A DNA stretch of 64,000 nucleotides from Mucilaginibacter ginsenosidivorax (GTDB lineage Bacteria > Bacteroidota > Bacteroidia > Sphingobacteriales > Sphingobacteriaceae). A program made the translations under genes and the position numbers. The notes under the pieces are model-generated. The model was not told where the DNA came from and searched no databases. It was given only the letters and a program-made list of their open reading frames with translations. Shown one piece after another: positions 32,650 to 46,790 of the stretch. Positions within the stretch are counted from its first letter, which is position 1. Each line of letters begins with the position of its first letter. Location: assembly GCF_007971525.1 (NCBI RefSeq), contig NZ_CP042437.1, positions 3,782,001-3,846,000 on the forward strand, written 5' to 3'.

Positions 32650-32669
32650 TTAAATAGTATAGTAAAAAT

Positions 32670-32696
32670 AAAGCGGGGCGTTAGCTCCGCTTTTTA
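32670..32696 (+). terminator. Rho-independent terminator
   Basis: AAAGCGGGGC pairs with GCTCCGCTTT (one G-U pair) around GTTA and is followed by TTAAATC. It ends the 31950-32649 two-gene unit. Confidence 0.75.
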
Positions 32697-33885: not shown

Positions 33886-33939
33886 GACGAAATAGCTGAC
33901 CACGTTAGAGTTACAAATAAGTAGAGGTCTATTTATACT

Positions 33940-34143
33940 ATGAACTTTTTGCATAGTAATATTTTTATTATTTGCAGAGCGATCATTAGATTAATTATAT
34001 GTATATATATAATTTTCTCGTTGATAGCTTATGGAAAGATCTACGTTATAACTACAGAAACCATTCTTCTCTTAATTCTTTCCATTGATCTTATTGTTTT
34101 AATTATAGAAACCTTTATTTATCGGCTTCATAATACAAAATGA
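33940..34143 (+). CDS. Two-helix small membrane protein
   Basis: A 67-aa protein made of two hydrophobic helices (IFIICRAIIRLIICIYIIFS, TILLLILSIDLIVLIIETFI) joined by a short loop with a basic residue. It has no family assignment. It follows the membrane-anchored protein gene by 54 bp on the same strand and is convergent with the second recombinase. It could be a small membrane toxin, but no antitoxin RNA is evident. Confidence 0.5.
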   Translation: MNFLHSNIFIICRAIIRLIICIYIIFSLIAYGKIYVITTETILLLILSIDLIVLIIETFIYRLHNTK

Positions 34144-34212
34144 GCCTTACCCTTTCTTACTTTAAATTGAGGCTTAAGGGCCAGCAAATGCAAATTTTAT
34201 CCCTTCTAAAAA

Positions 34213-35859
34213 CTACTGTCTTTCTGATTTCAAAAAAAGGTTCCGAACTTCCTTTAATTGGGAGCACATAAACGGAGAATAGAGAAAACTTTTGATTTTA
34301 GCTTTATTTTTCAACGACAAGGCAGGTCCGAACTCTAACAATAGCGTATTTACCTCTTTCGCGATCTCGCTAAGCGGGAATATCCATTTTGAATTGGTTA
34401 AATCAAGCTTTCTTTCATTTACTATCAAGTCCGAACCTAACTCCAGCAGAATCTCTCTTTTGCTTTCGGGCCAGCTGTTTTTAAACCGCCAAGGTGCGTA
34501 TATGGCAAGATCAATTAGTTTATCAGCAGCCTCTATCCAGGCCGGTGAATCGGCACTGCTTTCCGTTATCAACTCTGATAAACGATGTTTTTCCTCGTTT
34601 AATTCAATTCTTTTTTCCCGAAACTCGTCGTCGGTTATTAGTTCGGCGGAACGCATGTCGATCAATCCATTTATTTTTTTCTGAACCTGTTCAAGCGCCA
34701 CCCTATTCGCATCGCCTAAGCCATCCGCGTTGTTTTTCTGCCTAACTTCGTTCTCGTGCCGAACCCAATCCATCAGATGTTCGTGCATCGATTCGGGCAT
34801 TTGTATTGCAGACAGGATGTTTTCAATGTCTTGACTGATGGCAGCCTCGGTGATCGGCCGCTGCGAACAGGCACCTTTCCGCTTCGTGCATTTATAATAT
34901 ATGTATTGATGCACGTTGCCGTTCTTCTGCCGCTTTACCTTCAGTTCCCCGGTCATTGCGCAGCCGCACCTGCCGCACCGCAACGAGCAGCCGCCATAGC
35001 TGAAGTAATGGTGGGCAGGGCGGGGGTTGTCGGGCCTGCGAAACATCCGCTGTACCCGGTCAAATTCCGCTTTTGTAATCATCGGCTTGTGGATTCCCTT
35101 GTATATGCTGCCACTCCTTTTTGGCCACTCATACTCACCGTAATAGAAGGTGTTGTGAAAGATGCTGTATGCGGTGGATAGGGCTGGCTTTTGGCCGGCG
35201 GCGTTGCGCAGGCCCCATTTGTTGATTGCGATGTTGATGATTTGGGTTGGCGTATGCGTTCTTGCCAACAACGCCTCCCACATCTTGCGTACGACAGGAA
35301 ACGCAATTGGGTCAATTTCTCGCTTTCTCGCACCCTTTATGCCGCCCTTATCAGGAAGATACCCCAATGGCGGACGCCCCGGAAAAATGCCAAGCTGTGC
35401 GCACTTGGTCATTCCGGCCTTTACGTCCAACGCCTTGTTGTCGTTTTCAAATTTCGCCTGTAGGCAGTGAAAGCCGAGCATGAAAATATCCATCGGATTG
35501 TTTCGATAAACGTGGCTCTCCGTCACTATTTCCCTGAGTCGGCCGGTATCGAAGAGGTTTATAATGTCGCCGATGTCAACGGAGTTTCTCGAAAGCCGGT
35601 GCGGCGCCCATGTTACGATGCCGTTAACTTTCCCAGCCTTGATCTGCCTTATAAGTGAATTGAAGCCAGGTCTACCCGGTCGCTTTGCGGACTTCTTTTC
35701 TTCTATAGTTTCGACAACATTGAGATTGTGACTATTCCGTAAACGATCAAGTACATCCCGCTGACTGCTTAACGAGAGTACTTGTTTTTCCTTATCATCG
35801 GTAGATTTGCGCAAATATTCCGCATACCGAATAGTTGTATTGGTTTCATTTTTCATCAT
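34213..35859 (-). CDS. Second large serine recombinase
   Basis: A 548-aa large serine recombinase. The resolvase domain has Ser19 (YAEYLRKSTDD), the SLSSQRDVLDRL helix and WAPHRLSRNSVDIG. A recombinase domain covers about 170-300. A zinc ribbon has CGRCGCAMTG and YYKCTKRKGACSQ, and a coiled coil follows at about 385-440 with a C-terminal tail. It is only distantly similar to the integrase at 29701 and lies in the middle of the element, not at an end. It may act on the interleaved inverted repeats just upstream (35873-35985), resolve element multimers, or be the integrase of an older nested element. Confidence 0.9.
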   Translation of the reverse strand: MMKNETNTTIRYAEYLRKSTDDKEKQVLSLSSQRDVLDRLRNSHNLNVVETIEEKKSAKRPGRPGFNSLIRQIKAGKVNGIVTWAPHRLSRNSVDIGDIINLFDTGRLREIVTESHVYRNNPMDIFMLGFHCLQAKFENDNKALDVKAGMTKCAQLGIFPGRPPLGYLPDKGGIKGARKREIDPIAFPVVRKMWEALLARTHTPTQIINIAINKWGLRNAAGQKPALSTAYSIFHNTFYYGEYEWPKRSGSIYKGIHKPMITKAEFDRVQRMFRRPDNPRPAHHYFSYGGCSLRCGRCGCAMTGELKVKRQKNGNVHQYIYYKCTKRKGACSQRPITEAAISQDIENILSAIQMPESMHEHLMDWVRHENEVRQKNNADGLGDANRVALEQVQKKINGLIDMRSAELITDDEFREKRIELNEEKHRLSELITESSADSPAWIEAADKLIDLAIYAPWRFKNSWPESKREILLELGSDLIVNERKLDLTNSKWIFPLSEIAKEVNTLLLEFGPALSLKNKAKIKSFLYSPFMCSQLKEVRNLFLKSERQ

Positions 35860-35872
35860 TTAAAGGGGGGCA

Positions 35873-35985
35873 AAGCCCAAAAAAGGGGCAATCACGACCA
35901 ATCTTAAGTAGCTACACAAAAGACGGTGATTGCCCCATTTTTGGGCTTAAAATCGGTCGATATCAATTGTCTTTTGCGTAGCTAC
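35873..35985. repeat. Interleaved inverted repeats between the 58-aa gene and recombinase 2
   Basis: Three words appear in the order A-B-C and then again, each inverted, in the same order. A is 35873-35895 with its complement at 35926-35948 (22 of 23 match). B is 35895-35902 with 35952-35959 (7 of 8). C is 35908-35924 with 35969-35985 (16 of 17). Hairpins A and C cannot nest, so the RNA or single strand would form a pseudoknot-like or alternative structure. The last word overlaps the stop codon of the 58-aa gene. Confidence 0.85.
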
Positions 35986-36158
35986 GGCCATTCTATCATA
36001 TTTTTGTATTCAGGAGGAATGGGTGCCAAATACAGCACTCGATACAATCTTCGTAACCGGGAAAGCTTTTCCGCTGCCTCTCCTTTTGACAGCACAACGT
36101 TGTACTCCTTGGCAAAAAGATCGATGAATGTTTGTAAATCGCGGTCGCTTATTTCCAT
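35982..36158 (-). CDS. 58-aa small protein paired with recombinase 2
   Basis: The frame starts at ATG 36158 and encodes EISDRDLQTFIDLFAKEYNV, then VLSKGEAAEKLSRLRRLYRV and a short tail. It is helical and charged. I recall a frequent small protein of the type ISDEDLKKFIEIY...LSxEEA next to serine recombinases in Candidate Phyla Radiation and other mobile elements, and this fits that pattern. It is co-directional with the recombinase at 34213-35859, 122 bp upstream, with a complex inverted repeat between them. It may be a recombination accessory or directionality protein; this is inferred. Confidence 0.65.
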   Translation of the reverse strand: MEISDRDLQTFIDLFAKEYNVVLSKGEAAEKLSRLRRLYRVLYLAPIPPEYKNMIEWP

Positions 36159-36190
36159 AGCTACATAATCTCATCGATCAAAAAAATGAG

Positions 36191-36234
36191 GTAGTACATC
36201 ATTTTTACGATTTTGCGTATATACGATCTACTAC
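36191..36234. promoter_or_regulatory. Dyad in the divergent promoter region of the ATPase and 58-aa gene
   Basis: GTAGTACATC at 36191-36200 is inverted as GATCTACTAC at 36225-36234 (9 of 10). A perfect CGTATATACG palindrome at 36216-36225 touches the right arm. It lies between divergent genes and looks like an operator. Confidence 0.4.
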
Positions 36235-36266
36235 AAAATAAATTGGGCGTTAGCTATTGTTAAAGC

Positions 36267-37430
36267 ATGCACGACCCCAAGCCATTCACCCCGATAGGAA
36301 AGACCAACTTCCGCGACCACAACCGCGTCTTCGGCATCAAGCCCGCTGATCGCCTGCACCACATCTTTTGCCTGGGCAAGACCGGCATGGGCAAATCTCA
36401 TTTGCTCATCAACATGGCGGTCGATGACATGCACAAGGGATACGGGATATGCGTGCTTGACCCGCACAGCGATACGGTAGAAGCGGTATTTAAGAAGGTA
36501 CCCGAACACCGCAAAAAGGACGTTATCTATTTCGACGCGACCAACCGCGCCAGCCTGCCAGCCTTTAACCCGCTGGCTGACGTTCCCGACCACCAGCGGC
36601 AGTTAGTAGCCTCCGAAATGATTACCACGTTCAAGCGGCTCTTTTCGACCTCGTGGGGCGACAAGCTGGAATACGTGCTGCGCTTTGCCATCACCACGCT
36701 GCTGGAATACCCCGGTGCCACGTTGTTAGACATAGCAAAACTGCTAACAGATCCTGCATTTCGCTCAAAGGTTTTGCTTCAAGCGCAGAACCCCTATACC
36801 AAATTCTTTTGGCTCAATGAATACAATCTGTATTCTGCCAGTATGCAGGCCAGTACTATTCAGCCCATATTGAATAAGGTGGGAGTACTGCTTGCCAACG
36901 ACACCTTGCGCGGCATCTTCGGGCAACCACAAGGTATTTCATTTGAGCAGTGTATGAATGAGCAAAAGATTGTATTAGTGAATCTTTCCAAAGGAGAGAT
37001 TGGGGAAGATGTGGCAACCGTACTTGGCAGCTTTATCATTACGAGCATACAGAACGCGGCCATGCGCCGAGCATCCATCCCGATAACAGAGCGCAGGCGC
37101 TTCTATGTCTTCATAGACGAAGCGCAGCACTTCGTCTCGACCTCCTTTGCCGCGATGCTCCCGCAGGTGCGAAAGTTCGGCCTGGGCCTGTTTTTGGCCA
37201 ACCAGCACCTTGACCAGCTGGAAGCGGACACCCGAAGCGCCATCCTTGCCAACTTCGGCACGCTGATCGTCTTTCGGGTCGGGCTTGAAGACGCGAAGGC
37301 GATGGAAAGGCTTTTTTACCCTGTGTTCACGTACGACGACTTTGTCAGCCTGCCCAAGTATCATATCTACCTGAAGCTGCTGATTGACGGGGCGGAGAGC
37401 AAGGGGTTTAGCGCGGTGACAATGATTTAG
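36267..37430 (+). CDS. TraD/HerA-like DNA translocase ATPase, short paralogue
   Basis: A 387-aa ATPase with Walker A GKTGMGKS at residues 37-44 and Walker B YVFIDEAQHF near 282. It has the arginine-finger-like segment FRVGLEDAKAMERLF and ends NLxKYxIYLKL-like (LPKYHIYLKLLIDGAES). It matches the type IV coupling/HerA group of hexameric ATPases that pump DNA. It consists of the motor alone, without membrane helices or the all-alpha domain of VirD4. Its core is clearly paralogous to the ATPase at 39743 (shared segments VLDPHxD and FSTSWGD). Similar stand-alone motors are, to my recollection, common in Candidate Phyla Radiation genomes. Confidence 0.82.
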   Translation: MHDPKPFTPIGKTNFRDHNRVFGIKPADRLHHIFCLGKTGMGKSHLLINMAVDDMHKGYGICVLDPHSDTVEAVFKKVPEHRKKDVIYFDATNRASLPAFNPLADVPDHQRQLVASEMITTFKRLFSTSWGDKLEYVLRFAITTLLEYPGATLLDIAKLLTDPAFRSKVLLQAQNPYTKFFWLNEYNLYSASMQASTIQPILNKVGVLLANDTLRGIFGQPQGISFEQCMNEQKIVLVNLSKGEIGEDVATVLGSFIITSIQNAAMRRASIPITERRRFYVFIDEAQHFVSTSFAAMLPQVRKFGLGLFLANQHLDQLEADTRSAILANFGTLIVFRVGLEDAKAMERLFYPVFTYDDFVSLPKYHIYLKLLIDGAESKGFSAVTMI

Positions 37431-37437
37431 GATAAAA

Positions 37438-38139
37438 TTAATTTACACTGACTGCGGCAATAGCAATTGCTTCCGAATCCCCAGGCTTTAAATTACCGAT
37501 ATCGTATCCACTGTCCGACAATAGACTTGATACGCTAAATGGTTTTACGTGTGATAAACAATCTTTTCTCTGTGCTGTTTCCTGTAATCTGATTTCTAAA
37601 ATGTTATCAGAATATATCTTTACAGAATCAGAAAGGTAAATATTATTGCCAACAATTATTCTTCCGTAAATAGTAGTGATATGACCCTGAGAATCGGTGC
37701 CGTAATCCATATTTGCTAAAACATCCTTTGCTTCAAAGATTCCGGTGTTTTTGTATTGCATTAAAATTGTTAGCACGTCATTCTTTACAGCGTTTACTTC
37801 TTTTCCAAAGCATTCCCCGTCTTTTAGTATTTTACACCCACCAGTCGTACTATTGATAATAGTTAGTAAGGGCAACTGGTTGGTCTGGGGATCAAACTTT
37901 ATTGGATGCGTGTTATTGGCAAGCCAGTTTTTGTAATTTATGGTATCAGAATCTATAGTTGAATTTAGTGAATCAATCTGATTCTCTATCGAGTCAATTT
38001 GATCTTTCATTTGCCCCTTATTTCTTTCGTAGGAATAAGGGCCAAAATAATTCCCGAAGGCAACCCCCACTGTAACTACCGCCAGCATCTGACTTAGCTT
38101 ACCAAAAATGCTCCAAAATCCGTTTTCGATGTTTTCCAT
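37438..38139 (-). CDS. Membrane-anchored DUF11-like protein, copy 1
   Basis: A 233-aa protein with an N-terminal hydrophobic helix (LSQMLAVVTVGVAFGNYFG), a charged coiled segment (MKDQIDSIENQIDSLNSTID) and a beta-sandwich-like domain. The domain contains VLTILMQYKNTGIFEAKDVL, the pattern of DUF11-type repeats (a strand, then YxNTG), and ends GYDIGNLKPGDSEAIAIAAV. The ending matches that of the gene at 38452 (DISIGDLKGNGQGAIILRLK), so the two are probably paralogues. It converges on the short ATPase gene, with 7 bp between their stop codons. The role is unknown; a cell-surface part of the element is inferred. Confidence 0.65.
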   Translation of the reverse strand: MENIENGFWSIFGKLSQMLAVVTVGVAFGNYFGPYSYERNKGQMKDQIDSIENQIDSLNSTIDSDTINYKNWLANNTHPIKFDPQTNQLPLLTIINSTTGGCKILKDGECFGKEVNAVKNDVLTILMQYKNTGIFEAKDVLANMDYGTDSQGHITTIYGRIIVGNNIYLSDSVKIYSDNILEIRLQETAQRKDCLSHVKPFSVSSLLSDSGYDIGNLKPGDSEAIAIAAVSVN

Positions 38140-38156
38140 TTTTATAAATAAAATCC

Positions 38157-38351
38157 CTACTTGAGGGATTTGATGGTTAAGTTCATTTTAGTTGGACTCA
38201 TTATATTTGCTTTTAGATAAATACTAATTGCCAAAAAAATGGTCATTAATGTGTCGTTATTGGTGTGTACTCTAATATTATAAAAAACGTAAAAACAAAG
38301 AACTAACTGGCTAAAACTTAATAAGTTTAAAAATGACTGTTTATTAATCAT
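38157..38351 (-). CDS. Possible 64-aa membrane protein
   Basis: A short frame with two hydrophobic segments (FLNLLSFSQLVLCFYVFY, TLMTIFLAISIYLKANI). It lies between the two DUF11-like protein genes on the same strand, directly after a 24-bp perfect hairpin in the direction of transcription. No family is recognised, and composition alone could explain the frame, so the call is weak. Confidence 0.35.
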   Translation of the reverse strand: MINKQSFLNLLSFSQLVLCFYVFYNIRVHTNNDTLMTIFLAISIYLKANIMSPTKMNLTIKSLK

Positions 38352-38356
38352 CGTTT

Positions 38357-38411
38357 TGGATTTAATGGTTACCTGAGGCGTCGGTAACGCCTCAGGTAAC
38401 CATTAAATCCA
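38357..38411. repeat. Long perfect hairpin (23-bp stem)
   Basis: A 23-bp word at 38358-38380 (beginning GGATTTAATGG, ending CTGAGGCG) is exactly inverted at 38388-38410, with a seven-base loop that can close one further pair. No T-run follows on either strand, so it is not a typical terminator. It follows the DUF11-like gene at 38452 on the minus strand. Confidence 0.85.
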
Positions 38412-38451
38412 TTTGGTAAATAATAGCATATTTATGATTATTTGTCAATAA

Positions 38452-39153
38452 TTATTTCTCAATACCGGCCTTGAGTCTTAAAATAATTGCCCCTTGCCCA
38501 TTGCCTTTTAAATCACCAATGGAAATATCGGAGTTATTAGCTACTATCTGGTAGTCATCTATATGTTTATACCCCAGGCTATCTACTATTTTCCAACTAC
38601 CTTGCCCAATGAGCAGTTCAAGAAAATTGCAGTTGTGTAAGTAAGCCTTCGCTATACCGCGTTGAATGACTATGCCGTTAGATTTCGCCTTCGCTTCAAA
38701 TAATGCAGAATGGGAGAGTTTTTTTACTGACAAATTAAGCGTAACGTTTTTAACGGTAACTGGGCTCCGATTATGATAATGGATTTCGACAGCCAATGTA
38801 TCACCATTATAAATGTCTGTTTCTTTTTTCCAACAGCCGTTTTCAGTTCCTTCCTCGCATTTATGTCTTGTGTCGTTTGCTACATCAACAAGGCCAATTC
38901 GGTTTATATCTTTTCTTGCAACACTTAAGTGATATTTATCAAAATAGAGGTCATTGGTCTTTTGTAGCTTGTAAAAATCATGCAAAAATTCAAGATGCCC
39001 CCTTTTATACTCCAAAGATTCTTTTTGACTTATTAAATCTTTGGTATCAGCCTTGGTAAATGAAATCAACCAGCCAGTAATTACAGATACAACGAGCAGG
39101 ACGATTGCGAACGGCAAGTTCAATAGCTTAAATATATTTTTAATTTTTGCCAT
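38452..39153 (-). CDS. Membrane-anchored DUF11-like protein, copy 2
   Basis: A 233-aa protein, the same length as the one at 37438. It has an N-terminal membrane helix (LPFAIVLLVVSVITGWLISF), a coiled segment (DLISQKESLEYKRGHLEFLH) and a beta domain with TLAVEIHYHNRSPVTVKNVT, the strand-YxN pattern of DUF11-like domains. It ends DISIGDLKGNGQGAIILRLK, which parallels the end of copy 1. Cysteines in HKCEEGTENGCWK parallel GGCKILKDGECFGK in copy 1, suggesting a conserved disulfide outside the cytoplasm. It is divergent from the 39288 gene. The function is unknown. Confidence 0.65.
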   Translation of the reverse strand: MAKIKNIFKLLNLPFAIVLLVVSVITGWLISFTKADTKDLISQKESLEYKRGHLEFLHDFYKLQKTNDLYFDKYHLSVARKDINRIGLVDVANDTRHKCEEGTENGCWKKETDIYNGDTLAVEIHYHNRSPVTVKNVTLNLSVKKLSHSALFEAKAKSNGIVIQRGIAKAYLHNCNFLELLIGQGSWKIVDSLGYKHIDDYQIVANNSDISIGDLKGNGQGAIILRLKAGIEK

Positions 39154-39287
39154 GTGATAGTTCTCGGTTCTAAGCGAAGTTAGTTTGTAACTAAAGATAA
39201 TCGGTGCATTTTAAAAAAACAACATGTTTGCATATTAAATATTTTCTAAATAGCTTTATATCAATACAAAACCTAAATCAAAGCACC

Positions 39288-39746
39288 ATGTCAAAACCAG
39301 TCACCCACAGCCATTCCTATCAGCATTTCGAGGATTTGCAGCTCTCCGCGAAGGATTTCTACGCGGCCCTCGAGGCCCGCATTGCCTCGTATCAGTTTCC
39401 GGACGTCGAATGCAGGGTCGTGGAAAGGCACGAGGATTCCATCCTGTCCTCCAAGCGCCAGTACTTGCAAATCGAGCATCACTATCTGAGCTATCTCGTC
39501 TGCGCCGCCCCGTTCGGCAGGAGCTTCTTCATCAGCTGGTACCTGGAACAGAGCGAGGACGGCTTCACCCTTGCACTGCGCAAGATACCCATCCTGCGCT
39601 GGCTGGTACCGAGCGAGAAGACATACTATCAGATTGACAGCGAGCTGATGTTCAAGAACAGCATTGAAAATATCGTTAAAGCAGCGGTACACAAGTTAAT
39701 GGTCGAGCACGGCTATAGGCAGCCCGACATTGAGCTGGCCGAATGA
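39288..39746 (+). CDS. Unknown protein coupled to the large ATPase
   Basis: About 152 residues from ATG 39288 (SKPVTHSHSYQHFEDLQLSA); a start at 39204 would add 28 residues of no clear quality. The body has mixed strands and helices (YLQIEHHYLSYLVCAAPFGR, SFFISWYLEQSEDG) and no membrane segment or known motif. Its stop codon overlaps the start of the next gene in the sequence ATGATG, so the two are translationally coupled. It is therefore probably a partner of the 981-aa ATPase. The coding sequence is markedly GC-rich compared with the flanking 38,000 region. Confidence 0.65.
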   Translation: MSKPVTHSHSYQHFEDLQLSAKDFYAALEARIASYQFPDVECRVVERHEDSILSSKRQYLQIEHHYLSYLVCAAPFGRSFFISWYLEQSEDGFTLALRKIPILRWLVPSEKTYYQIDSELMFKNSIENIVKAAVHKLMVEHGYRQPDIELAE

Positions 39747-42688
39747 TGGCGACCTCTATTGCGCAACAGCTCACTGCCAACTTCTATGAGGGGGAACGGC
39801 ACGGCCGCGGCTGGCACGCGGCCGACCATATCGTTGACCTTGAACCGCCATTTTCTCCCTTTAGGGGACACGAGATTGCTCTGCCCTATATTGATGACGG
39901 CAGGCGCCATACGGCGCTAAGCACCTTTGCCAGCTGGTTTAAATCAGAGCAAACGGTATCAATACCACCTGTTGTTAAAGATACTATTGCTGCATACCCC
40001 GATACTGACGAGGAACCAGTATTGGTGACCTATGCCGTAACCCTCGCCAGGCACTTCGTGCCAAGGCCGGAGGCGATAGAGCACTGCCTGACGATGCTGG
40101 CCTCGGTCACCCTGCCCGTTTCGTTCGAGCTGATCGCGCAGGCAGCAGCGATAGCGATACAGGTCACCTGCCGCGAGGCCAATGCCGCCTTTGTCTATAC
40201 CCAATTAACAGCATACTTTCCCGAAGTGGCAATCCTTTCCTCCGATATCGATGTATTAGCAGAGTGCGTACAAAATGCAGCTGCAGTCTATGCCGTTGAT
40301 CTCGGGATAGAGGATGAATATATGCGTCCCATTAATACATTTGGCAAAAGTGTTCTTGATCCATATACAGCACTCTTTAGTACCTTCAATCAGCTGCGTG
40401 GCAACGAGGCCGCTGTGGTGCAGGTACTGTTTTGCGGCGTGCAGAACGCCTGGGCCGAAAGCATCGTTGCGTCAGTCAGCGACGAGCGGGGTGGGTCATT
40501 TTTTATCGATGCGCCGGAAATGCCTCATCTTGCAAGAGAGAAAGTATCCCGGCCACTGCTCGGGGCAGCGATTCGCATAGCCGCATTCGCGGACGATATC
40601 GACGATGCGGGCGTCCTGTTGCAGCACAGCACGCTGGCGCTCGTTGTGGCCTCAGCCAGCCCCCATAACGCGCTGGCGGCACTGCATACCCCCGCGTACA
40701 CCATCGAGCAGCGGCTGGGCGATCTCGTCATGAGGCAAACGCACCGGGTCGGCATGCTGCTCAATACAAAGGAACTGGCAACGTTTGTGCACTTTCCACC
40801 TGTCCAATTATCAAAAAAGCTGCTGCCCAGCCACACCACCACCAAGCGCGCCCCAAGCTACCTTTTCAACCAGTCTTATATATTAGGCATGAATGAGCAT
40901 CAGCGCCAAAGCGTTGAAGTCGGGATCGATACCAGCCAGCGCCTGAAGCACCTGCACATTATCGGCGGTACCGGCATGGGAAAGTCAACGCTTCTGCACA
41001 GCCTCATCAGCCAGGACATCGCGCAAGGCACCGGCTGCTGCGTGTTGGACCCGCACGGCGACCTGATCGATACCGTACTGAAATCCATTCCACCGGAGCG
41101 CATTCATGACGTGGTACTGATCGACCCGTCGGACAGCGGCTATCCGGTTGGATTGAACATCCTGCAAGCCCATAGCGACATTGAGCGGGAACTGCTGGCC
41201 TCGGACCTGGTGGCACTGTTTAAGCGCTTTAGTACGTCATGGGGCGACCAGCTTCATAGTGTGCTTGCTAATGCTATCATGGCATTTTTATACAACACCA
41301 AGCCGGGGCATATTGGGGACTTGCGCAAATTCCTGATTGAACCCGCATTTCGCGCAACAACCCTGCACACCTGCACCGACGAGGAACTCGTCTACTACTG
41401 GCACAAAGAATACCCGCTATTGAAAACCTCCTCCATCGGCTCAATATTAACGAGACTTGATAGCTTTTTGCGCCCGAAAAGCATCCGCGCCATGGTCTGC
41501 CAGCATCAGGGGTTGGACTTTCATGAATTAATGAACGGCAGCAAGATCGTACTGGTCAAGCTCGCCCAAGGATTAATTGGAGGCGATAATAGCTATCTGT
41601 TAGGTGCTTTGATTGTATCCAAACTACAGCAGGCCGCCCTGGCCCGGCAGCAGCTGACTGCTGCCGCCCGCACACCGTTTTTCTGCTACATCGACGAGTT
41701 TCACCATTTTATAACGCCCTCGCTCAATACTATTTTGAGCGGTGCCCGAAAGTATGGCTTGGGACTGATTTGCGTACACCAGGACATGCAGCAATTGCAG
41801 CGTGTCGATAGCGATATTGCCAGTTCGCTCATGTCCAATGCCGGTACCCGCATCTGCTTCAGGCTGGGCGACACCGATGCCAAGCGGATGCAGGAGGGGT
41901 TTAGCGGCTTTAATGCAGAAGATTTCCAAAATTTGAATATTGGTGCAGCTATTGCACGGGTCAATACCGCCGATGCCGATTTTAATCTCTCTGTGATCCC
42001 CACAGCCCCGCACCATGAAGATTACGGCACCGACATTATTGCTGCCTCGCGAAATCAGTACAGTGTTCCTATAGCCCCGAATACAGCTATCCCGCCGCCA
42101 ACACCACCAATTGAACCAAGCCCGATACCACCACCGCCTCCAACGGCACCATCACCAACCGTTGCCCCAAGGCAAAGGAAGGCGGTACACGGGCAAAAGC
42201 CGGATACCGAGCACCGGTATTTGCAGAACTTTATCAAAACGATGGGCGAGCAGCACGGCTACAGGGCAAATATCGAGGTGCCGACAAGGGACGGCAAGGG
42301 ACAGATTGACGTGCTACTCTCAAAAGATCATGAAACTGTTGCCTTTGAGGTATCAATCAATACCGATGCCGAATGGGAGATACACAATATCGGTAAGTGC
42401 CTGGCTGACGGCTGTACCATGGTGGTATTGTGCTCGGGGAGCGCAAGAAAGCTCATGCAGGTCAGGCAGAAGGTGCAGCAGGCCTTTCCACCTGCTGAGC
42501 AGGCAAAAATTCATCTCCTAAGCCCCGACGAGCTGCCGCAGTTTTTCAACGCCGCGCAAGCAGCAACGCCGCCGGTGCCGGCAGTGTCAACCATGAAGGG
42601 GTATCGGGTGAAGGTGAAGTATGATCAAGTCAATGCCAACGGTGACGCACAAAATGTGATTGAGAGAATCATTAGGGGCGGAAAATAG
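39743..42688 (+). CDS. Large TraD/HerA-like ATPase with nuclease-like C-terminal domain
   Basis: A 981-aa protein in three parts. Residues 1-390 form a domain I do not recognise. Residues about 395-770 are a DNA-translocase motor with Walker A GGTGMGKST near 409 and Walker B FFCYIDEFHHF near 650. A proline-rich linker (about 780-806) leads to a C-terminal domain of about 110 residues with GYRANIEVPT, GQIDVLL, then VAFEVSINTD. This order, a strand with Asp, then a strand with Glu-x-(Lys), resembles PD-(D/E)XK nucleases, but Ser replaces the catalytic Lys. The motor is paralogous to that at 36267. Without a relaxase nearby, transfer of double-stranded DNA or a defence role are both open. Confidence 0.8.
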   Translation: MMATSIAQQLTANFYEGERHGRGWHAADHIVDLEPPFSPFRGHEIALPYIDDGRRHTALSTFASWFKSEQTVSIPPVVKDTIAAYPDTDEEPVLVTYAVTLARHFVPRPEAIEHCLTMLASVTLPVSFELIAQAAAIAIQVTCREANAAFVYTQLTAYFPEVAILSSDIDVLAECVQNAAAVYAVDLGIEDEYMRPINTFGKSVLDPYTALFSTFNQLRGNEAAVVQVLFCGVQNAWAESIVASVSDERGGSFFIDAPEMPHLAREKVSRPLLGAAIRIAAFADDIDDAGVLLQHSTLALVVASASPHNALAALHTPAYTIEQRLGDLVMRQTHRVGMLLNTKELATFVHFPPVQLSKKLLPSHTTTKRAPSYLFNQSYILGMNEHQRQSVEVGIDTSQRLKHLHIIGGTGMGKSTLLHSLISQDIAQGTGCCVLDPHGDLIDTVLKSIPPERIHDVVLIDPSDSGYPVGLNILQAHSDIERELLASDLVALFKRFSTSWGDQLHSVLANAIMAFLYNTKPGHIGDLRKFLIEPAFRATTLHTCTDEELVYYWHKEYPLLKTSSIGSILTRLDSFLRPKSIRAMVCQHQGLDFHELMNGSKIVLVKLAQGLIGGDNSYLLGALIVSKLQQAALARQQLTAAARTPFFCYIDEFHHFITPSLNTILSGARKYGLGLICVHQDMQQLQRVDSDIASSLMSNAGTRICFRLGDTDAKRMQEGFSGFNAEDFQNLNIGAAIARVNTADADFNLSVIPTAPHHEDYGTDIIAASRNQYSVPIAPNTAIPPPTPPIEPSPIPPPPPTAPSPTVAPRQRKAVHGQKPDTEHRYLQNFIKTMGEQHGYRANIEVPTRDGKGQIDVLLSKDHETVAFEVSINTDAEWEIHNIGKCLADGCTMVVLCSGSARKLMQVRQKVQQAFPPAEQAKIHLLSPDELPQFFNAAQAATPPVPAVSTMKGYRVKVKYDQVNANGDAQNVIERIIRGGK

Positions 42689-42713
42689 CGTTAATGGGCA
42701 AGGCCGGATAAGT

Positions 42714-42962
42714 TCATTTTGAAGCAATCGGCCTTTCCGGCAGGAAGTCTCGCGGGCTGCATCCGAAGATGACCGCAAGGCTGTTAAGCTGGTCAAGGCT
42801 GTACTTGCTCACGTGCCTCGGGCTCTCTATCTGGCCGATGAACGCGTCGGACAGGTCGAGCATCGCGCCGAGCCGCGCCTGGCTGATCCCGCGCGCCGTG
42901 CGCAGGCGCTTGATCTCGCCGATCACGTATAGGTCTATCTCGCTCTTGGGCTGTCCGCGCAT
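42714..42962 (-). CDS. XRE-family helix-turn-helix regulator
   Basis: An 82-aa protein with a full Cro/CI-type HTH: IGEIKRLRTARGISQARLGA, then MLDLSDAFIGQIESPRHVSK, then YSLDQLNSLAVIFGCSPRDF. It is convergent with the large ATPase gene (25 bp between stops) and divergent from the lipoprotein gene at 43064. The coding sequence is unusually GC-rich, like the next two genes, which suggests that this three-gene block came from a different donor than the AT-rich part of the element. Confidence 0.85.
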   Translation of the reverse strand: MRGQPKSEIDLYVIGEIKRLRTARGISQARLGAMLDLSDAFIGQIESPRHVSKYSLDQLNSLAVIFGCSPRDFLPERPIASK

Positions 42963-43063
42963 GGGGGCAAGTAAGCGAAGCGGCGCAACAATTTCACCAA
43001 GAAATACTTGGTATTTTCATTTCGGTTCCGTACCTTGGCTGGAAAGCTTAGCCCCTCGCAACC

Positions 43064-43366
43064 ATGAAGAGAAACCCTACCCCCAAGCGGGCCCTCGCCC
43101 TCGCGGCGCTCCTGTGCCTGTCGTCACTGTCCTGCCAAAAGAAGTACTGCTGGAAGTGCGCGGCCTTCCAGTACCGTGGCTACACCCCGAAAGACCCCTC
43201 CGTCCCGTTCCACAAGCCCACGGAGCAGTGGGACACGACGAGGTACGAGGTGTGCGACAAGACGGCCGTCGAGATCAAGGACGAGACGAACCAGTCGGTG
43301 AACACGAACAAGCTGGAAGGGCAGTACTTCGTGCACTACACGCTGAAAAAGGAGTGCGGGAGGTAG
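43064..43366 (+). CDS. Small Cys-containing lipoprotein
   Basis: A 100-aa protein with a basic start, a hydrophobic segment and a lipobox LSSLSC, giving a predicted lipoprotein of about 75 residues. The mature part has a CWKC motif (KKYCWKCAAF) and two further cysteines (VCDKT, KKECGR). The CWKC pair could form a redox-active or structural disulfide. No family is recognised. It sits between two XRE regulators. A longer overlapping frame in the same strand is a GC-skew artefact. Confidence 0.7.
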   Translation: MKRNPTPKRALALAALLCLSSLSCQKKYCWKCAAFQYRGYTPKDPSVPFHKPTEQWDTTRYEVCDKTAVEIKDETNQSVNTNKLEGQYFVHYTLKKECGR

Positions 43367-43410
43367 CACGCGGGCCGCAAACTACGCCAGCTAACCCCTA
43401 TATTCGCACC

Positions 43411-43671
43411 ATGAGTGGCACAAGTAAGGAAACCAAAGACAGGACGAAGCGGCTGCTTTCGGCGCGGCTGAAAGCACTGCGCGCGGAGCGAAACATGACG
43501 CAGGCGGCGCTGTCCGCATCGTCGGGCGTGAGCGTCGGGCAGATACGAAAAATGGAGGCGGGGAGCTCGGATTCCACGATGAGGACTGTCGAAAGGCTGT
43601 CCGAGGCGCTCGGCATTCTGCCGAACGAGTTCCTGTCGGGTTTTGGCGCGCCAGCCGACGAGGCCCAATAA
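43411..43671 (+). CDS. XRE-family helix-turn-helix regulator
   Basis: An 86-aa protein from ATG 43411, with an HTH of the XRE type: RLLSARLKALRAERNMTQAA, then LSASSGVSVGQIRKMEAGSS, then TVERLSEALGILPNEFLSGF. An open frame extends far upstream without a stop because of the high GC content, but the family homology begins here. It follows the lipoprotein gene by 44 bp on the same strand and may regulate it. Confidence 0.82.
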   Translation: MSGTSKETKDRTKRLLSARLKALRAERNMTQAALSASSGVSVGQIRKMEAGSSDSTMRTVERLSEALGILPNEFLSGFGAPADEAQ

Positions 43672-44063
43672 AAAAGCATGTCGCAAGTCCCACGGTCGGG
43701 CGTCTCGCCCGCTTTGTGGCGGGTTACTCATAACCTATTCGGAAATGGTCTTGTCCTGTAACTCACTACAATACGATAGCAACTATGGCATGTGGAAAAA
43801 TAGTACCGGCATTTCACGGTCGACCCTTAAATACGCAACGTCCTAATTTTACCAAACGGAAATACCGGAGTCTTTAAAACACTGTTGATAAGCGCGGGAG
43901 CGCAGTAAAAAGCGTCCTCATGCGAGATAGGAGCTGTCCTACCATCCAATAGGCTGTGTCACCGAGTTCATTCTTTGGCCAGAGCGGGGTGCGGAAACGT
44001 TTACCCGTTAAATGAGGAGTTTACTAATAGTTAACTATTGCCTGAAAGTGACATTAACTTTCG
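43672..44063. other. Gap without a supported gene
   Basis: About 390 bp with no credible coding frame. A GGGCG-TCT-CGCCC hairpin near 43702-43714 follows the XRE gene and could help end its transcript. The rest is of mixed composition and unexplained. Confidence 0.45.
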
Positions 44064-44155
44064 TATCTTTGACATTCAAGCAGGCACCTCGCCTGCATTG
44101 TGATAAGGTTTAGGTTTACAAGGGCCGGGTGCGAGACTTCGGCCCTTGTTATTTA
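44064..44155 (+). ncRNA. Candidate small RNA with promoter and terminator
   Basis: A TATCTTTG box at 44064-44071 (TAnnTTTG type), with TTG at 44038-44040 upstream, is followed after a few bases by a perfect hairpin GCAGGC-ACCTC-GCCTGC at 44080-44096. A terminator-like hairpin CAAGGGCCG / CGGCCCTTG follows at 44119-44148, trailed by TTATTTAA. The predicted transcript is about 75-80 nt with no coding frame. It could be a regulatory RNA of the element, or merely a promoter and terminator of unrelated units. Confidence 0.45.
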
Positions 44156-44186
44156 ATAGTAGCTTTTGCAGAAAGCACTTTATGGT

Positions 44187-44216
44187 AAAGCCCTCGATAA
44201 CAATATCAAGGGCTTT
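44187..44216. terminator. Hairpin after the AAA ATPase gene
   Basis: AAAGCCCTCGATA pairs with TATCAAGGGCTTT (one wobble) around ACAA. It lies 30 bp beyond the stop of the leftward AAA ATPase gene and can serve either strand. Confidence 0.6.
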
Positions 44217-44246
44217 AGACTTTATTTAAAGCATAAATTGCCAAAA

Positions 44247-46790
44247 CTAACTAAAAATCGTTCTTAGTTTTTTAAATGTCTCAAAATCCGTCTTAAGTTC
44301 CTGTAATGTAGGCTCGTTGTGTATTTCCATCGGATTGCTATGGCCTTTTATATATCCGCAGCAACGTTCAAATAGCTCGTTTAATTGCTCTTTATTGCTA
44401 TCGAGGAGTTGACCGTTAATCTTAATAAATTGCGTTAACGCTACATTTTTTTGATAACGCCTAACAGTGTTGTTCAATATTTCATTTTCGACGCAAAGTT
44501 CAATAGCTGATCGTAAGTAGCCATATCCATCTTCCGCCATTTCGGCTTCAGGACGACTTTTTGCGCTACTCAACAAGATATTTATTTTTCCGATATATGA
44601 TTTGACTGAATTTACCTCTTCAGCATTGGATATAATTCCAGTCTCCTCATGTTCATTTCGTGAGTTGTAAAACGTTAAATCTATTCCTTTGTATTGTGGC
44701 TTATCACGGAAATAAAACAGGCTATTAAATAAGAGTATACTGTGGGTAAATATGATTACCTGACGATCTTTGGATAGCGCTATTGCCCGCCTTGAATAAT
44801 CATCAATCAAATGATGGTCGAGACTATTAACAGGATCATCAAAAATCACCGTGGATTTTGAGTTATCAAGCTGTAATTCAGTAAGAAATTCTGACAGGGC
44901 AATTGCTTTTTGTTCGCCTTCGCTTAAAATTTCAGTTAACAAATGAGACTTAACACGCTGTTGCACTTTAGAGTTGCCTCTATCTGTCGCAAAATTCAAA
45001 TCAATGTTAAGATGTGATTTTCTGAACGCCGCTAATTCAGTTTTGAAAATGGCATTAAAATTCTGCCTTACCAACTCTTCTCTTGCTTCTGTCGTTTTGA
45101 TGCTAATAGATCGCGTGTTGAAAGCATTTTGATTTTTGTTTAGGATGTCTATTTTTTTTAGATTTTCTATCGTAGTTGTAATATTAGTTAAATGATCAGT
45201 CAGGATCTTTCTATCTTTCAGTTCATTAATTTCTATAGTAATTTGGCGCTCTTTTGTTGCAATATTAGCTAAATCACTTTCTCTGCTGTTAAGTTCTTTA
45301 GCCAGAGCTTGCTTCTTTTCCTCGAATGCAGTTAGGAGAGTTGAATACTTAAGGGGTAAATCTCCATTTGGGATATTATCATCAGTAACAGCTTTTTTTA
45401 ATGAGGACAAGGTATTATTGTATTCTATTAGTTCTTGCGGTTGTTTGATAGTGCCTTCGTCATCATATCCCCAAGATGCCTGGGCTAATTTTATAGCTCC
45501 GTCAACATATGTCATTTGCGCTTTGAAATGATTTCTGCTCGCTGACAACTGATTTATTTGTTGCTGGGTCGTATCGTTGAGTAGGACACGATAATTTGCA
45601 AGTAATTCTTTCGCTGGTGTATCTAAATTTTGCTGACAGTAAATACAAACGTCGCTTTCTGCCGGATAATTACTTTTGGCTAATAGTTTCAAATAAGCAT
45701 CTGCGGCGGTAATAAAAGATAAAAATTGAGCACTTGAATATTGCTCTATTGAAAACGATGAGACGATTTCACTAAGTCCTCGCTGTGATTGTTTTTGCAA
45801 CACTGCAATATCTGTAATGGTCTTATGCTGTTCTTGCCAAGTCTTGTTATTAATAATGGATTCCGCTTTTCGTATCTTTGTTAGACTATTTTCAATATCT
45901 GAAATTTTTAATTTTAACTCTCTTATTGTGGCTTCTATTAAAGCCTTGTTCAAGCCTGTTAGTTCCTTAGTTTTTGCTATTAAACGTTGGTTATGTCCAT
46001 CATCAAAGCCCGCCAATATTGTTAGTTCACTTACTACTGTTTTTGATGAAAGTTTGCTGATAGCAGAGTGTTGTGGCGTTCCGGGCAGAAATAGTGCAAG
46101 CCAATCAGTGACTGGCAGTTTTTGCTTTTCGGTATTAATTAACTGGGCTAGCGCATTTAATTCATCTGTTACCAAACCAAACAACTCGAACCCTATTGGT
46201 GTAACGACGAGTTGGCGATCAGATAATGAAATTGCAACGCAATGATTATTGAAAACCGATATAGTATCGAGGTCATTGCAACGGTTGCTTCCAGTCCAAG
46301 TAAATGATTGGTGGGTTCCATTAGTTTCAAAATCTATCTTAGCTGATTTAGGTGGTTTTGTTGGGTTGTATATATTGGGATGAATAGTGCCGCTGGTTTC
46401 ATAGCTAAATCCCAATGCTTTTAAGATTCTGCTGTAACCTGTTTTTCCTGTGCCGTTTTCTCCGTAGATGACAGTTAAGTTTGGCGAAAAACCAATGGTT
46501 TGATCCTTTGCCAATCTGTTCACTCCGGTCACTTCTGATAATCGTGATATTTTTACCGACTTAGATGATATTGAATAAGGGGGCTTAGATATCGCAAGCG
46601 GTGGAAGACCCGAAAACAATTTTATAGATTGTAAAAAGTACTGAAAAATTGTAACTCTTTCTTGCTGAGAGAGGCATCCAGAAGAAGATAGGATATTTCT
46701 TAAAAGAAGCTTTGCCCATATTCCCTGGTTTTCTGCCCATTCCCAAAGGAAATCAATTACTTCTTTTTTCGAGTTTGTTGTTGATGTCAT
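44247..46790 (-). CDS. AAA_13-type ATPase, PrrC/RloC-like candidate
   Basis: An 847-aa SMC/ABC-like ATPase. It has Walker A GENGTGKT near residue 110, a long central coiled coil (about 270-590) interrupted by a zinc-hook-like CIYC near 381, the ABC signature LSEGEQKA near 620, and Walker B TVIFDDPVNSLD near 645. This is the AAA_13 layout shared with the anticodon nucleases PrrC and RloC. After the motor lies a C-terminal domain with YLRSAIE (Arg-x3-Glu near 758-762) and a later His in IKGHSN near 816. These are reminiscent of, but not proof of, the R-E-H nuclease triad. A defence or competition role is inferred. It lies at the right end of the element. Confidence 0.75.
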   Translation of the reverse strand: MTSTTNSKKEVIDFLWEWAENQGIWAKLLLRNILSSSGCLSQQERVTIFQYFLQSIKLFSGLPPLAISKPPYSISSKSVKISRLSEVTGVNRLAKDQTIGFSPNLTVIYGENGTGKTGYSRILKALGFSYETSGTIHPNIYNPTKPPKSAKIDFETNGTHQSFTWTGSNRCNDLDTISVFNNHCVAISLSDRQLVVTPIGFELFGLVTDELNALAQLINTEKQKLPVTDWLALFLPGTPQHSAISKLSSKTVVSELTILAGFDDGHNQRLIAKTKELTGLNKALIEATIRELKLKISDIENSLTKIRKAESIINNKTWQEQHKTITDIAVLQKQSQRGLSEIVSSFSIEQYSSAQFLSFITAADAYLKLLAKSNYPAESDVCIYCQQNLDTPAKELLANYRVLLNDTTQQQINQLSASRNHFKAQMTYVDGAIKLAQASWGYDDEGTIKQPQELIEYNNTLSSLKKAVTDDNIPNGDLPLKYSTLLTAFEEKKQALAKELNSRESDLANIATKERQITIEINELKDRKILTDHLTNITTTIENLKKIDILNKNQNAFNTRSISIKTTEAREELVRQNFNAIFKTELAAFRKSHLNIDLNFATDRGNSKVQQRVKSHLLTEILSEGEQKAIALSEFLTELQLDNSKSTVIFDDPVNSLDHHLIDDYSRRAIALSKDRQVIIFTHSILLFNSLFYFRDKPQYKGIDLTFYNSRNEHEETGIISNAEEVNSVKSYIGKINILLSSAKSRPEAEMAEDGYGYLRSAIELCVENEILNNTVRRYQKNVALTQFIKINGQLLDSNKEQLNELFERCCGYIKGHSNPMEIHNEPTLQELKTDFETFKKLRTIFS

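Follow-up and report, generated by a model that had tools for sequence, protein, structure and literature searches.

What two paralogous motor ATPases do in a locus where no relaxase or secretion channel is recognised was the question raised by a stretch of 64,000 nucleotides (the window) from the soil-type bacterium Mucilaginibacter ginsenosidivorax (contig NZ_CP042437.1, positions 3,782,001 to 3,846,000). The original prediction was confined to the span 36267–42688 and proposed double-stranded DNA transfer, segregation or defence. That span was only part of a mobile island of 17.6 kb, about 29728 to 47322 of the window, inserted in comM/yifB. The island is a site-specific integrative element, which had been missed. 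Any of the three proposed roles may apply, and the new evidence points towards site-specific recombinases as the partners to which both motors are coupled.

An integrative element in comM

The junctions were placed by comparison with intact comM from five relatives. Apart from the motor genes and their partner, the island and its flanks contained the following features.

28674–29728, forward strand: 5' part of comM/yifB, the target gene (TIGR00368, 462.7 bits; PF01078, PF13541); the ORF extends into the island to 29765
29718–29729, forward strand: attL, left junction, inside the Asn-Pro-Cys codons of comM; putative crossover at TG, 29727–29728
29701–31197, reverse strand: SR1, large serine recombinase at the left end, presumed integrase (PF00239, 1.9e-30; PF07508, 1e-15)
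31499–31753, forward strand: 84-aa backbone protein, HTH-like by eye; cluster in 12/14 elements
31950–32186, forward strand: 78-aa backbone protein without a match in the Pfam scan; cluster in 11/14 elements
32119–32649, forward strand (ATG start probably 32167): p32119, possibly RNase H/YqgF-like (weak YqgF match only, 1vhx, E 0.015); in 13/14 elements
34213–35859, reverse strand: SR2, second large serine recombinase, inside the island and head-to-head with T387 (PF00239, 2.6e-20; PF07508, PF13408)
35873–35948, no strand: inverted repeat between SR2 and T387 (23-nt arms, 96% complementary, 30 nt apart)
44247–46790, reverse strand: cargo AAA_13 protein of candidate defence family PDC-S06 (1243.6 bits over the full length)
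46857–47294, reverse strand: HTH protein at the right end of the island (HTH_31, 7.5e-7); cluster in 7/14 elements
47297–47806, forward strand: ORF with the 3' part of comM/yifB (PF13335, 1.5e-35)
47319–47329, forward strand: attR, right junction; putative crossover at TG, 47321–47322

A comM fragment adjoined SR1 in 16 of the 17 SR1-bearing genomes of the genus, and comM fragments were likewise neighbours of element machinery in Bacteroidota, in one acidobacterial MAG (L053) and in another that is labelled as Proteobacteria (L038). The pattern of the inverted repeat between SR2 and T387 (z −8.1) occurred once in the genome, and similar sites were found at some other SR2-type loci.

The island resembled SCC elements in its Ccr-type serine recombinase, one preferred target gene, variable cargo and a tandem-like arrangement (genome G273). 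SCC elements target rlmH, whereas the target here was comM, and the backbone contained two T4SS-class motors. SR1 matched the CcrB model at 8.4e-38 but far under the cut-off, and no CcrA, CcrB or CcrC recombinase was found above the curated cut-off, the top score being 130.3 bits against 900 required. The islands of Acinetobacter comM (AbaR and others) are described in the cited part of PMC11472951 as carrying defence or resistance cargo, and a Tn7-like element is named there as comM-targeting. They were alike in comM insertion and cargo, and differed in that Tn7-like element, which stands against a serine recombinase with motors here.

The absence of a recognised relaxase or channel, on which the original prediction was built, was borne out in the proteins scanned. 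The PF03432 relaxase was found in 0/14 elements (the window's own and 13 related ones), PF13814 in 0/14 genomes by a search that had no positive control match, and no other relaxase family was among the matches listed. No secretion-channel (mating-pair formation) gene was recognised in the scanned element proteins of the window. The cargo Pfam scan of the 14 elements covered 192 of 215 ORFs of at least 120 aa, with the 25 commonest of 57 and of 56 families considered. Since no channel gene was recognised, transfer would need a machine from elsewhere.

The motors and their partner p152

36267–37430, forward strand: T387, bare VirD4/HerA-type motor ATPase, 387 aa, with GMGKS, VLDPHxD, FSTSWGD and IDE all present
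39288–39746, forward strand: p152, 152 aa, with a 4-nt overlap with the T981 gene
39743–42688, forward strand: T981, 981 aa, composed of a VirB4-like N-domain (about 84–380), a TrwB/HerA-type motor (380–760) and a PD-(D/E)XK-like C-domain (820–940)

The paralogy of the two motors was confirmed: T387 was 39% identical to T981 across T981 residues 391–731 (E 5e-66), and all four motifs were present in both. Both had a motor like that of the VirD4/TrwB coupling proteins. Pfam TrwB_AAD_bind (PF10412) matched T387 and T981 at 2.7e-9 and 1.6e-13 (36.8 and 50.7 bits, cut-off 20.5), and the T981 motor aligned with TrwB with a Z of 26.6 over 371 residues. No hydrophobic segment over threshold was found in T387, T981 or p152 of the window by a simple hydropathy scan (not a dedicated predictor), nor did that scan reveal an N-terminal membrane anchor of VirD4/TrwB type in either motor. 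The FtsK family (PF01580, FtsK_SpoIIIE) matched T981 weakly (E 0.01, 15.7 bits, cut-off 24) and was not among the listed Pfam matches of T387. The TraB protein of actinomycete AICEs, a motor of the FtsK/HerA superfamily, moves DNA without a relaxase. The parallel that had been drawn with it is weak on these two counts, and the likeness is that of relaxase-free DNA movement by such a motor.

The N-domain of T981, described at the outset as an unknown domain of 390 residues, was indeed present, but it resembled the VirB4 type in its predicted fold. A Foldseek search with predicted T981 gave, at the top, R388 secretion-complex chains (8rtd_O, E 5e-14, 823 columns) together with entries whose titles name TrwK/VirB4 (7o42, 7o43). 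Residues 81–765 aligned along 8rtd_O with a VIA Z of 16.3, and residues 89–768 along 7o42_E with a VIA Z of 16.0. The predicted fold, with N-domain and motor searched together, thus has a VirB4 N-domain followed by a RecA-like motor. The whole-chain r.m.s.d. from VirB4-type chains was 13.6–13.8 Å, which indicates that the domain placement in T981 differs from theirs. The sequence profile of the N-domain gave nothing below E 0.88 against the PDB. Patescibacterial (CPR) VirD4-like proteins from 38 loci shared the N-domain and motor, with 27–34% identity in the best segment. None of the 38 matches reached beyond T981 residue 811, which leaves the C-domain unmatched. In the three CPR loci inspected, the protein (852–853 aa) had a hydrophobic stretch at the start, and the neighbouring gene was dnaX-like by eye.

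The nuclease-like C-domain was upheld at the level of topology. In the T981 model it was ordered as helix 820–837, strands 841–847, 854–861 and 864–871, helix 876–888 and strand 893–898 (pLDDT by block 86–95 over 821–900), and this predicted domain contains the alpha-beta-beta-beta-alpha-beta core of PD-(D/E)XK nucleases. Residues Glu845, Asp856 and Lys885 were present in 35/35 full-length relatives and Glu869 in 34/35. The proposed replacement of the catalytic lysine by serine was correct in that position 871 was Ser, Ala, Cys or Thr, and Lys in 0/35 relatives, but it overlooked the invariant Lys885 in the next helix. No profile match to solved nucleases identified the C-domain as one, the only hit being 6ahx (E 0.19).

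The p152 protein is the ATG-started portion of a 180-aa GTG ORF. Its coupling to T981, also predicted, was found across the family: p152 was directly upstream in 38/38 pairs measured, with a spacing of −8 to +34 nt. TM-like hydrophobic segments were detected by the hydropathy scan in 18/36 p152 relatives, 17 of these 18 scoring 2.09 or more. The same scan flagged 4/19 T387 and 6/40 T981-family rows (scores 1.64–2.16) and is therefore not specific. In gene order, virB3 is directly upstream of virB4, a position that p152 shares relative to T981; a relation of p152 to VirB3 was looked for and none was found. T981 differs from VirB4/TrwK in its extra nuclease-like C-domain and its linkage to integrases, and no VirB6/8/9/10 gene was recognised.

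Distribution and recombinase neighbours

Among 120 genomes of the genus, T981 was present in 14 (E ≤ 1e-150), SR1 in 17 (E ≤ 1e-60) and T387 in 19 (E ≤ 1e-90). Every T981 genome also contained SR1 and T387 (hypergeometric 1e-15 and 2e-14, values that ignore relatedness). Three SR1 genomes (G195, G225, G267) contained neither motor at these thresholds, which indicates that the motors are unneeded for integration.

Co-variation was compared by Mantel tests over ten elements (15 pairs, uncorrected, SR2 left out). The strongest was that of T981 with SR1 (rho 0.73, p 0.0005) and of T387 with p32119 (0.68, p 0.006), followed by SR1 with p152 (0.66, p 0.002); the split into two modules was not clean. 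The p152–T981 correlation was weak (0.38, p 0.06), and SR1–T387 and T387–T981 gave 0.36 (p 0.0065) and 0.20 (p 0.09). Against the host gene comM, T981 gave 0.44 (p 0.0085) and SR1 0.38 (p 0.04). Because T387 occurred without T981 in 5/120 genomes and their best co-variation partners differed, T387 and T981 do not form one tight pair.

In 23 of 31 loci the closest divergent gene next to T387 encoded a site-specific recombinase, of the serine type in 19 and of the tyrosine type in 4, and T387 and a recombinase formed separable units (G180:C1, G162, G209, G210, G238, G223:C12). In six acidobacterial loci, and only there, the gene that followed T981, at −29 to +3 nt, encoded a relative of SR1 that lacks the catalytic domain and has an HTH_17-like tail (for L061 the distance was taken from an internal ATG at 1725).

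Possible roles of the motors

As anatomy alone, T387 and T981 are very probably backbone ATPases of a comM-targeting serine-recombinase element with defence cargo. The island suggests an undescribed mode of DNA processing or movement, in which motors are tied to integrases and no conjugation machine is recognisable. We infer, tentatively and at a little under an even chance, that this is integrase-coupled, relaxase-free DNA processing that serves transfer. The sequence itself shows the element with its target site, which genes are conserved, that T387 neighbours recombinases and that T981 overlaps an empty-recombinase gene in Acidobacteria. Each ATPase would work with a site-specific recombinase and without a relaxase. 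SR1 would cut the island out as a circle of double-stranded DNA. With p152 holding it and recombinase-type DNA-binding domains directing it to the attachment site, T981 would move along the DNA and nick or cut it with the PD-(D/E)XK-like domain, and T387 would serve the second recombinase as its counterpart motor. The likeliest purpose would be to prepare or drive relaxase-free transfer of the island between cells through a channel apparently not element-encoded. ArdC proteins, found in 5/14 elements, are as expected for DNA entering a restricting recipient and count for transfer.

A bolder form, which we consider unlikely, is that an empty serine recombinase at the attachment site loads the VirB4-type motor-nuclease onto the island, so that this site would act as origin of transfer within a relaxase-free machine built around an integrase. 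If true, bacteria would have an equivalent of archaeal HerA/NurA-plus-VirB4 DNA exchange, used for spreading defence islands. A precedent for the main transfer reading is provided by the archaeal Ced/Ted systems, in which, according to the cited parts of PMC9905601 and PMC11868833, VirB4/HerA ATPases move DNA and no relaxase is known. CedB and CedD are each similar to a different portion of the VirB4 N-domain (PMC11868833), and pilins and a VirB6-like channel are present (PMC9905601). The island shares ATPases of this class and has no recognised relaxase, but its motors belong to an integrated island that encodes recombinases and no channel was recognised. NCBIfam CedD matched T981 (1.1e-8) and T387 (3.6e-7), both far under the cut-off.

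The motors could instead act inside the cell like FtsK with XerCD, moving along the excised or integrated element in att alignment, recombination direction, dimer resolution or circle segregation, with no transfer between cells. The pairing of T387 with recombinases of two unrelated chemistries, its occurrence with a recombinase in separable units, the overlap of T981 with an empty recombinase gene and the lack of hydrophobic segments over threshold in the window proteins are in keeping with this. To our knowledge, however, large serine integrases require no motor; three SR1 genomes had none, recombination needs no nuclease-like domain, and the VirB4-like N-domain and the TM-like segments in half of the p152 relatives hint at a membrane. 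Such a role is improbable.

Slightly more doubtful is built-in defence or exclusion, in which motor-nucleases would attack incoming DNA of phages or of elements competing for the same attachment site. Several HerA-class motors are defence proteins, HerA-nuclease and HerA-SIR2 complexes were structural neighbours of the T981 motor, SIR2 and HerA genes adjoined one T387 unit, the island carries candidate defence cargo, and in PADLOC both motors matched mad8, a gene of MADS defence, better than any other model (4.8e-18, 1.4e-22). Among ten proteins compared with PADLOC, another mad model was matched by the PDC-S06 cargo alone (mad3, 6e-8), and two proteins of a second cargo set matched mad3 (best 7.4e-35). 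The motors nevertheless belong to the constant backbone while the defence genes vary between elements, T387 tracks recombinases, and p152 had 0 PADLOC matches.

It is very unlikely that T387 and T981 are coupling ATPases feeding the island to the relaxase and channel of a resident conjugative element. In favour of this role, PF03432 relaxases occurred elsewhere in 14/14 element-carrying genomes (carriers only were searched, hence no co-residence baseline), and relatives of the motors in a Bacillus and an Embleya plasmid adjoined replication-relaxation genes as well as genes whose annotation is PrgI or conjugal transfer. Against it, the island has no demonstrated oriT and its small backbone proteins no recognised relation to relaxosome proteins.

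These findings bear on how integrative islands that lack a relaxase, which can include defence islands, pass from cell to cell. The candidate machinery consists of few parts: a motor-nuclease with its partner, a bare motor and two recombinases. The target gene may matter as well. comM encodes a natural-transformation helicase and helps cells recombine DNA taken up, and insertion of the island could also impede its own removal by transformation. For the Acinetobacter comM islands, the idea that comM disruption hinders island loss through transformation is discussed in the cited part of PMC11472951.

Island in comM and its gene content

The island was seated within comM/yifB, and the two parts of this gene flanked it as separate ORFs. 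The comM gene was broken within the Asn-Pro-Cys-Pro-Cys-Gly codons when compared with five intact comM genes, and the crossover of the element likely occurred at a shared TG. The break and the shared TG, located against these intact genes, delimited an element of ~17.6 kb, from 29728 to 47322. The main features were as follows.

28674–29765: flanking ORF, 5' part of comM/yifB (TIGR00368, 462.7 bits)
36267–37430: T387, ORF of a 387-aa bare motor ATPase
39288–39746: p152, gene of a 152-aa protein, overlapping T981 by 4 nt
39743–42688: T981, ORF of a 981-aa protein with an N-domain, a motor and a nuclease-like C-domain
47297–47806: flanking ORF, 3' part of comM/yifB (PF13335, 1.5e-35)

From left to right, the element contained SR1 (a large serine recombinase, the presumed integrase), small genes at 31499, 31950, and 32119, a 201-aa ORF, and a second large serine recombinase, SR2, placed head-to-head with T387. 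These were followed by two cargo genes, the p152–T981 pair, a small HTH-like gene, an AAA_13 protein, and a right-end HTH gene. The AAA_13 protein matched the candidate defence family PDC-S06 with 1243.6 bits, and no Rfam match was found within 28600–48000. It is strongly suggested that SR1 would excise the island and insert it at comM. In Acinetobacter, comM is already described as a target of defence-carrying islands (PMC11472951). Among the open-access papers listed (up to 10 to 15 per search), titles and abstract starts gave no description of an element like this one.

ORFs were clustered over 14 elements of the genus, several of which were incomplete at the right end. The near-constant set was composed of the recombinases and motors (14 elements), p32119 (the backbone protein at 32119–32649; 13), the 31499 gene (12), the 31950 protein (11), p152 and an HTH family not present in the window (10 each), and the right-end HTH gene (7), and the remaining clusters reached at most five elements. 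By profile, p152 was recognised in 11 elements, and the stretch ended before T981 in the other three. The p32119 protein showed a faint likeness to YqgF/RuvC resolvases (1vhx, E 0.015), with Gly-Ile-Ser at the position where the catalytic Asp would be expected.

Of the 215 non-core ORFs with a length of 120 aa or more, 192 were scanned for cargo; 23 were left out, and five ORFs spanning stretch borders were dropped. Among the 25 commonest families per scan, matches were found to models of type II restriction-modification, CBASS-type cyclase and E1-E2, Gabija, AriA, and several PDC candidates. In five of the 14 elements, anti-restriction proteins of the ArdC type were also present. Statements on MADS (mad8) rest on PADLOC names, and a literature search on MADS terms was empty. 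A PF03432 relaxase was matched in all 14 genomes and within none of the 14 elements, as the original prediction of motors without a relaxase had it. Four of the 14 elements shared a cargo pair of very large ORFs of 1063–1232 and 1127–1633 aa (G165:C34:20023–28057 and G180:C11:257861–261244, with partners in G223:C6 and G265:C2), and in G162 and G180:C1 the T387 unit had ORFs of similar size beside it. The G180:C1 unit (L020:11643–15006) contained T387 and a recombinase without T981, and SIR2-domain and HerA-class genes stood side by side downstream, probably as a SIR2-HerA defence pair.

Distribution of the island genes

Among 120 genomes of the genus, SR1 was found in 17 (E ≤ 1e-60), T387 in 19 (E ≤ 1e-90), and T981 in 14 (E ≤ 1e-150). 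Both SR1 and T387 were present in all 14 T981 genomes, with hypergeometric values of 1e-15 and 2e-14, respectively, for related genomes that are not independent draws. A comM fragment adjoined SR1 in 16 of the 17 SR1 genomes, the exception being G180. Neither T387 nor T981 was detected in the SR1 genomes G195, G225, and G267 at the thresholds used or in the comM stretches read. The SR1 relatives of these three were 57–60% identical and seated in comM; therefore, a similar integrase and target are used by other backbones. T981-type or motor matches occurred in five of 201 genomes of a family-wide sample, all five belonging to the genus, and T981 occurred in seven of 395 genomes of a phylum-wide sample.

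Other arrangements of comM were also observed. In L025, a Mucilaginibacter MAG, an apparently complete 513-aa comM (5839–7380, minus strand) lay ~2 kb before p152, with a comM fragment at the right edge (15501–16052), and an intact comM (185–1723) lay 7.5 kb upstream of p152 in L049. The extra copies are possibly replacement copies or an assembly effect. In G273:C24:37939–96999 and G274:C1:784892–805127, comM was broken twice, at the Asn-Pro-Cys site and near codon 283, where the break adjoined a distant serine recombinase. In G273, SR1 was present at both 50797 and 90006, an arrangement like that of a tandem composite. Since comM matches stopped at residues 281–286 in eight of the 120 genomes (G215, G236, G219, G274, G212, G273, G014, and G268), this region is suggested to be a second, separate insertion hotspot.

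The relatives search of genome contigs was evaluated for the best 80 loci out of a larger number. In 42 of them (L021–L062), the match covered the greater part of T981 or reached well past the motor; these loci came from Bacteroidota, Acidobacteriota, an Anammoxibacter MAG, and a MAG labelled Proteobacteria. The other 38 (L063–L100) came from Patescibacteria or unassigned MAGs, and every match stopped at or before T981 residue 811. Three of these (L064, L072, and L077) encoded a T981 homologue of 852–853 aa without the C-domain, flanked by a 163–180-aa gene and a gene resembling dnaX by eye. Within the 42 loci, p152 was recognised upstream of T981 in 36; of the remaining six, L044, L046, L050, and L061 begin near a contig or stretch end, T981 is shortened in L033, and no p152 was found in L051. 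Fragments of comM were seen within 13 of the 42 stretches; many of the 42 stop short of the element's end. A viral origin was rejected: viral contigs searched with the T981 and T387 alignments gave no relative, and the 30 phage records matching T981 aligned in the motor only, at 22–26% identity.

Predicted structures of T981 and p152

T387 and T981 shared 39% identity over T981 residues 391–731 (E 5e-66), and both were placed above the Pfam cut-off in the TrwB/HerA class, which bears out the shared motor proposed from the sequence. T981 was modelled by AlphaFold2 from a 40-row alignment (mean pLDDT 82.6, pTM 0.55) and was composed of three parts. In the predicted structure, residues 380–760 matched TrwB (Z 26.6, 371 residues, rmsd 4.2), and also DotL, DndH-C, VirB4, and HerA. 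Among the Foldseek matches of the model, R388 secretion-complex chains ranked first (8rtd_O, which we take to be TrwK; E 5e-14, 823 columns), and entries with TrwK/VirB4 in their titles came next (7o42_A, E 5e-11). With VIA, T981 81–765 was aligned with 8rtd_O 13–799 (Z 16.3, rmsd 13.8), and T981 89–768 with 7o42_E 34–800 (Z 16.0). The high rmsd indicates that the domains are differently placed in T981 and 8rtd_O. The N-domain, called unknown in the original prediction, thus has a predicted VirB4-like fold in the whole-protein model, and its sequence profile matched no solved structure below E 0.88.

The C-domain (residues 820–940) was modelled with the α-β-β-β-α-β order, which is the topology of PD-(D/E)XK enzymes. 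Residues Glu845, Asp856, Glu879, Asn882, and Lys885 were invariant in 35 full-length T981 relatives, and Glu869 was conserved in 34. The expected replacement of the canonical Lys by Ser held more broadly, position 871 being Ser, Ala, Cys, or Thr in these relatives. A shift of the Lys to the following helix is a variation within the PD-(D/E)XK superfamily, and the catalytic Lys of T981 may have moved in this way. By eye, the motif layout resembled that of replication-relaxation (PF13814) nucleases, of which the C-domain may be a fused form; viral contigs searched with one such protein gave no relative. The C-domain is likely an active, putative nuclease. A purely DNA-binding domain is a less favoured but tenable reading, and profile searches gave no match for either role.

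The coupling of T981 to p152 extended beyond the overlap in the window: the spacing was −8 to +34 nt in each of the 38 measured pairs, and did not exceed 5 nt in 25 of them. The count leaves out L026, L029 (identical to L014), L033, L044, L046, L050, L051, and L061, which were cut, frameshifted, duplicate, or p152-less. The p152 model had a pLDDT of 89.8, and Foldseek gave no match at E ≤ 0.001. A kinase-associated domain reached the highest VIA Z, only 8.3, and was not interpreted. Profile matches to G-protein-coupled receptors (E 0.0012 at best) were ascribed to hydrophobic inserts of some rows and set aside. Hydrophobic segments above the threshold, N-terminal or as an internal insert, were present in 18 of 36 family members, and 17 of the 18 scored 2.09 or more; the simple hydropathy scan also flagged 4 of 19 T387 and 6 of 40 T981-family rows, at 1.64–2.16. 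Since half of the family carries such segments, p152 could serve as a membrane adaptor in certain hosts.

Recombinase–motor linkage and proposed working

In 28 of 31 loci, T387 had a divergent neighbour of 100 aa or more within 2.5 kb, the other loci being L148 (contig end), L051, and L060. Among the 28 neighbours, 19 had a serine-recombinase catalytic domain and four a tyrosine-recombinase domain; in a few loci (e.g. L045) another gene stood between T387 and the recombinase. T387 was constant while the chemistry of its partner recombinase changed.

T981 was also linked to a recombinase. In six acidobacterial loci (L046, L047, L050, L051, L052, and L061), the gene after T981 was an SR1 relative whose match started at SR1 residue 154–160. 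These relatives kept the DNA-binding domain of the recombinase together with its zinc-ribbon and C-terminal regions, but had neither the catalytic domain nor the stretch corresponding to the coiled coil of large serine recombinases. Three of them were tested by Pfam: PF07508 was matched, HTH_17 was matched at 4e-6 to 8e-5 (above its cut-off in one), and PF00239 was absent from all three. The tail was alike in all six. This empty-recombinase gene lay −29 to +3 nt from T981, L061 being counted from the internal ATG at 1725; its earlier called start would give −218 nt.

Distance correlations were calculated for ten genus elements (15 pairs, uncorrected), the remaining elements having a gene missing from the stretch covered or not being entered (G180). 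The strongest were SR1–T981 (rho 0.73, p 0.0005), T387–p32119 (0.68, p 0.006), and SR1–p152 (0.66, p 0.002). Weaker pairs were p152–T981 (0.38, p 0.06), SR1–T387 (0.36, p 0.0065), T387–T981 (0.20, p 0.09), and p32119–T981 (0.04), and the host gene comM correlated with T981 (0.44, p 0.0085), SR1 (0.38, p 0.04), and T387 (0.25, p 0.06). T387 and T981 as an inseparable pair were rejected given their weak correlation and the occurrence of T387 without T981 in G209, G210, G216, G238, and G248 (match cut in G248). Between the window and G292, identity was 87% for T387 and 53% for T981, a pattern resembling a module swap. From the recombinase neighbours of T387, the empty recombinase after T981, and the distance correlations, we conclude that one island combines two partly separable recombinase–motor modules.

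An inverted repeat at 35873–35948, between SR2 and T387, had 23-nt arms and a 30-nt middle, folded far better than shuffles (z −8.1), and the pattern made from it occurred once in the 7.8-Mb genome. Some of the other loci that have an SR2-type neighbour carried related repeats, CCCAAAGNGGAGC...GCTCCNCTTTGGG with 27–31 nt between the arms. Such repeats were not seen at G116, G223:C6, G263, and G265, taken by length and clustering to have tyrosine recombinases. With 20 shuffles per locus, three of these four were below the shuffle maxima and the fourth barely above (10 against 9), so that a T387 loading site is not favoured, but a strong repeat was likewise absent at several other loci (G162, G209, G238, and L038). 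Possible roles of the repeat at 35873–35948 are an attachment site of SR2 itself and a leader hairpin.

Three other explanations are live: that the motors assist recombination, that they serve defence, and that the island is mobilised with the assistance of an ICE. The preferred reading is DNA transport. T981 combines a motor with a nuclease-like domain and is paired with p152, and in Acidobacteria also with an empty recombinase that would be expected to bind att DNA. A precedent by analogy is found in the archaeal Ced/Ted systems, which have VirB4/HerA-class ATPases with no relaxase known, HerA-NurA being proposed as the maker of the strand (PMC9905601, PMC11868833). T981 and T387 would share with them this class of ATPase without a known relaxase. 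By this reading of transport, T981 would cut or nick near the attachment site and pump DNA, with export or import as the most likely purpose, through a channel that would come from the cell because none was recognised in the element.
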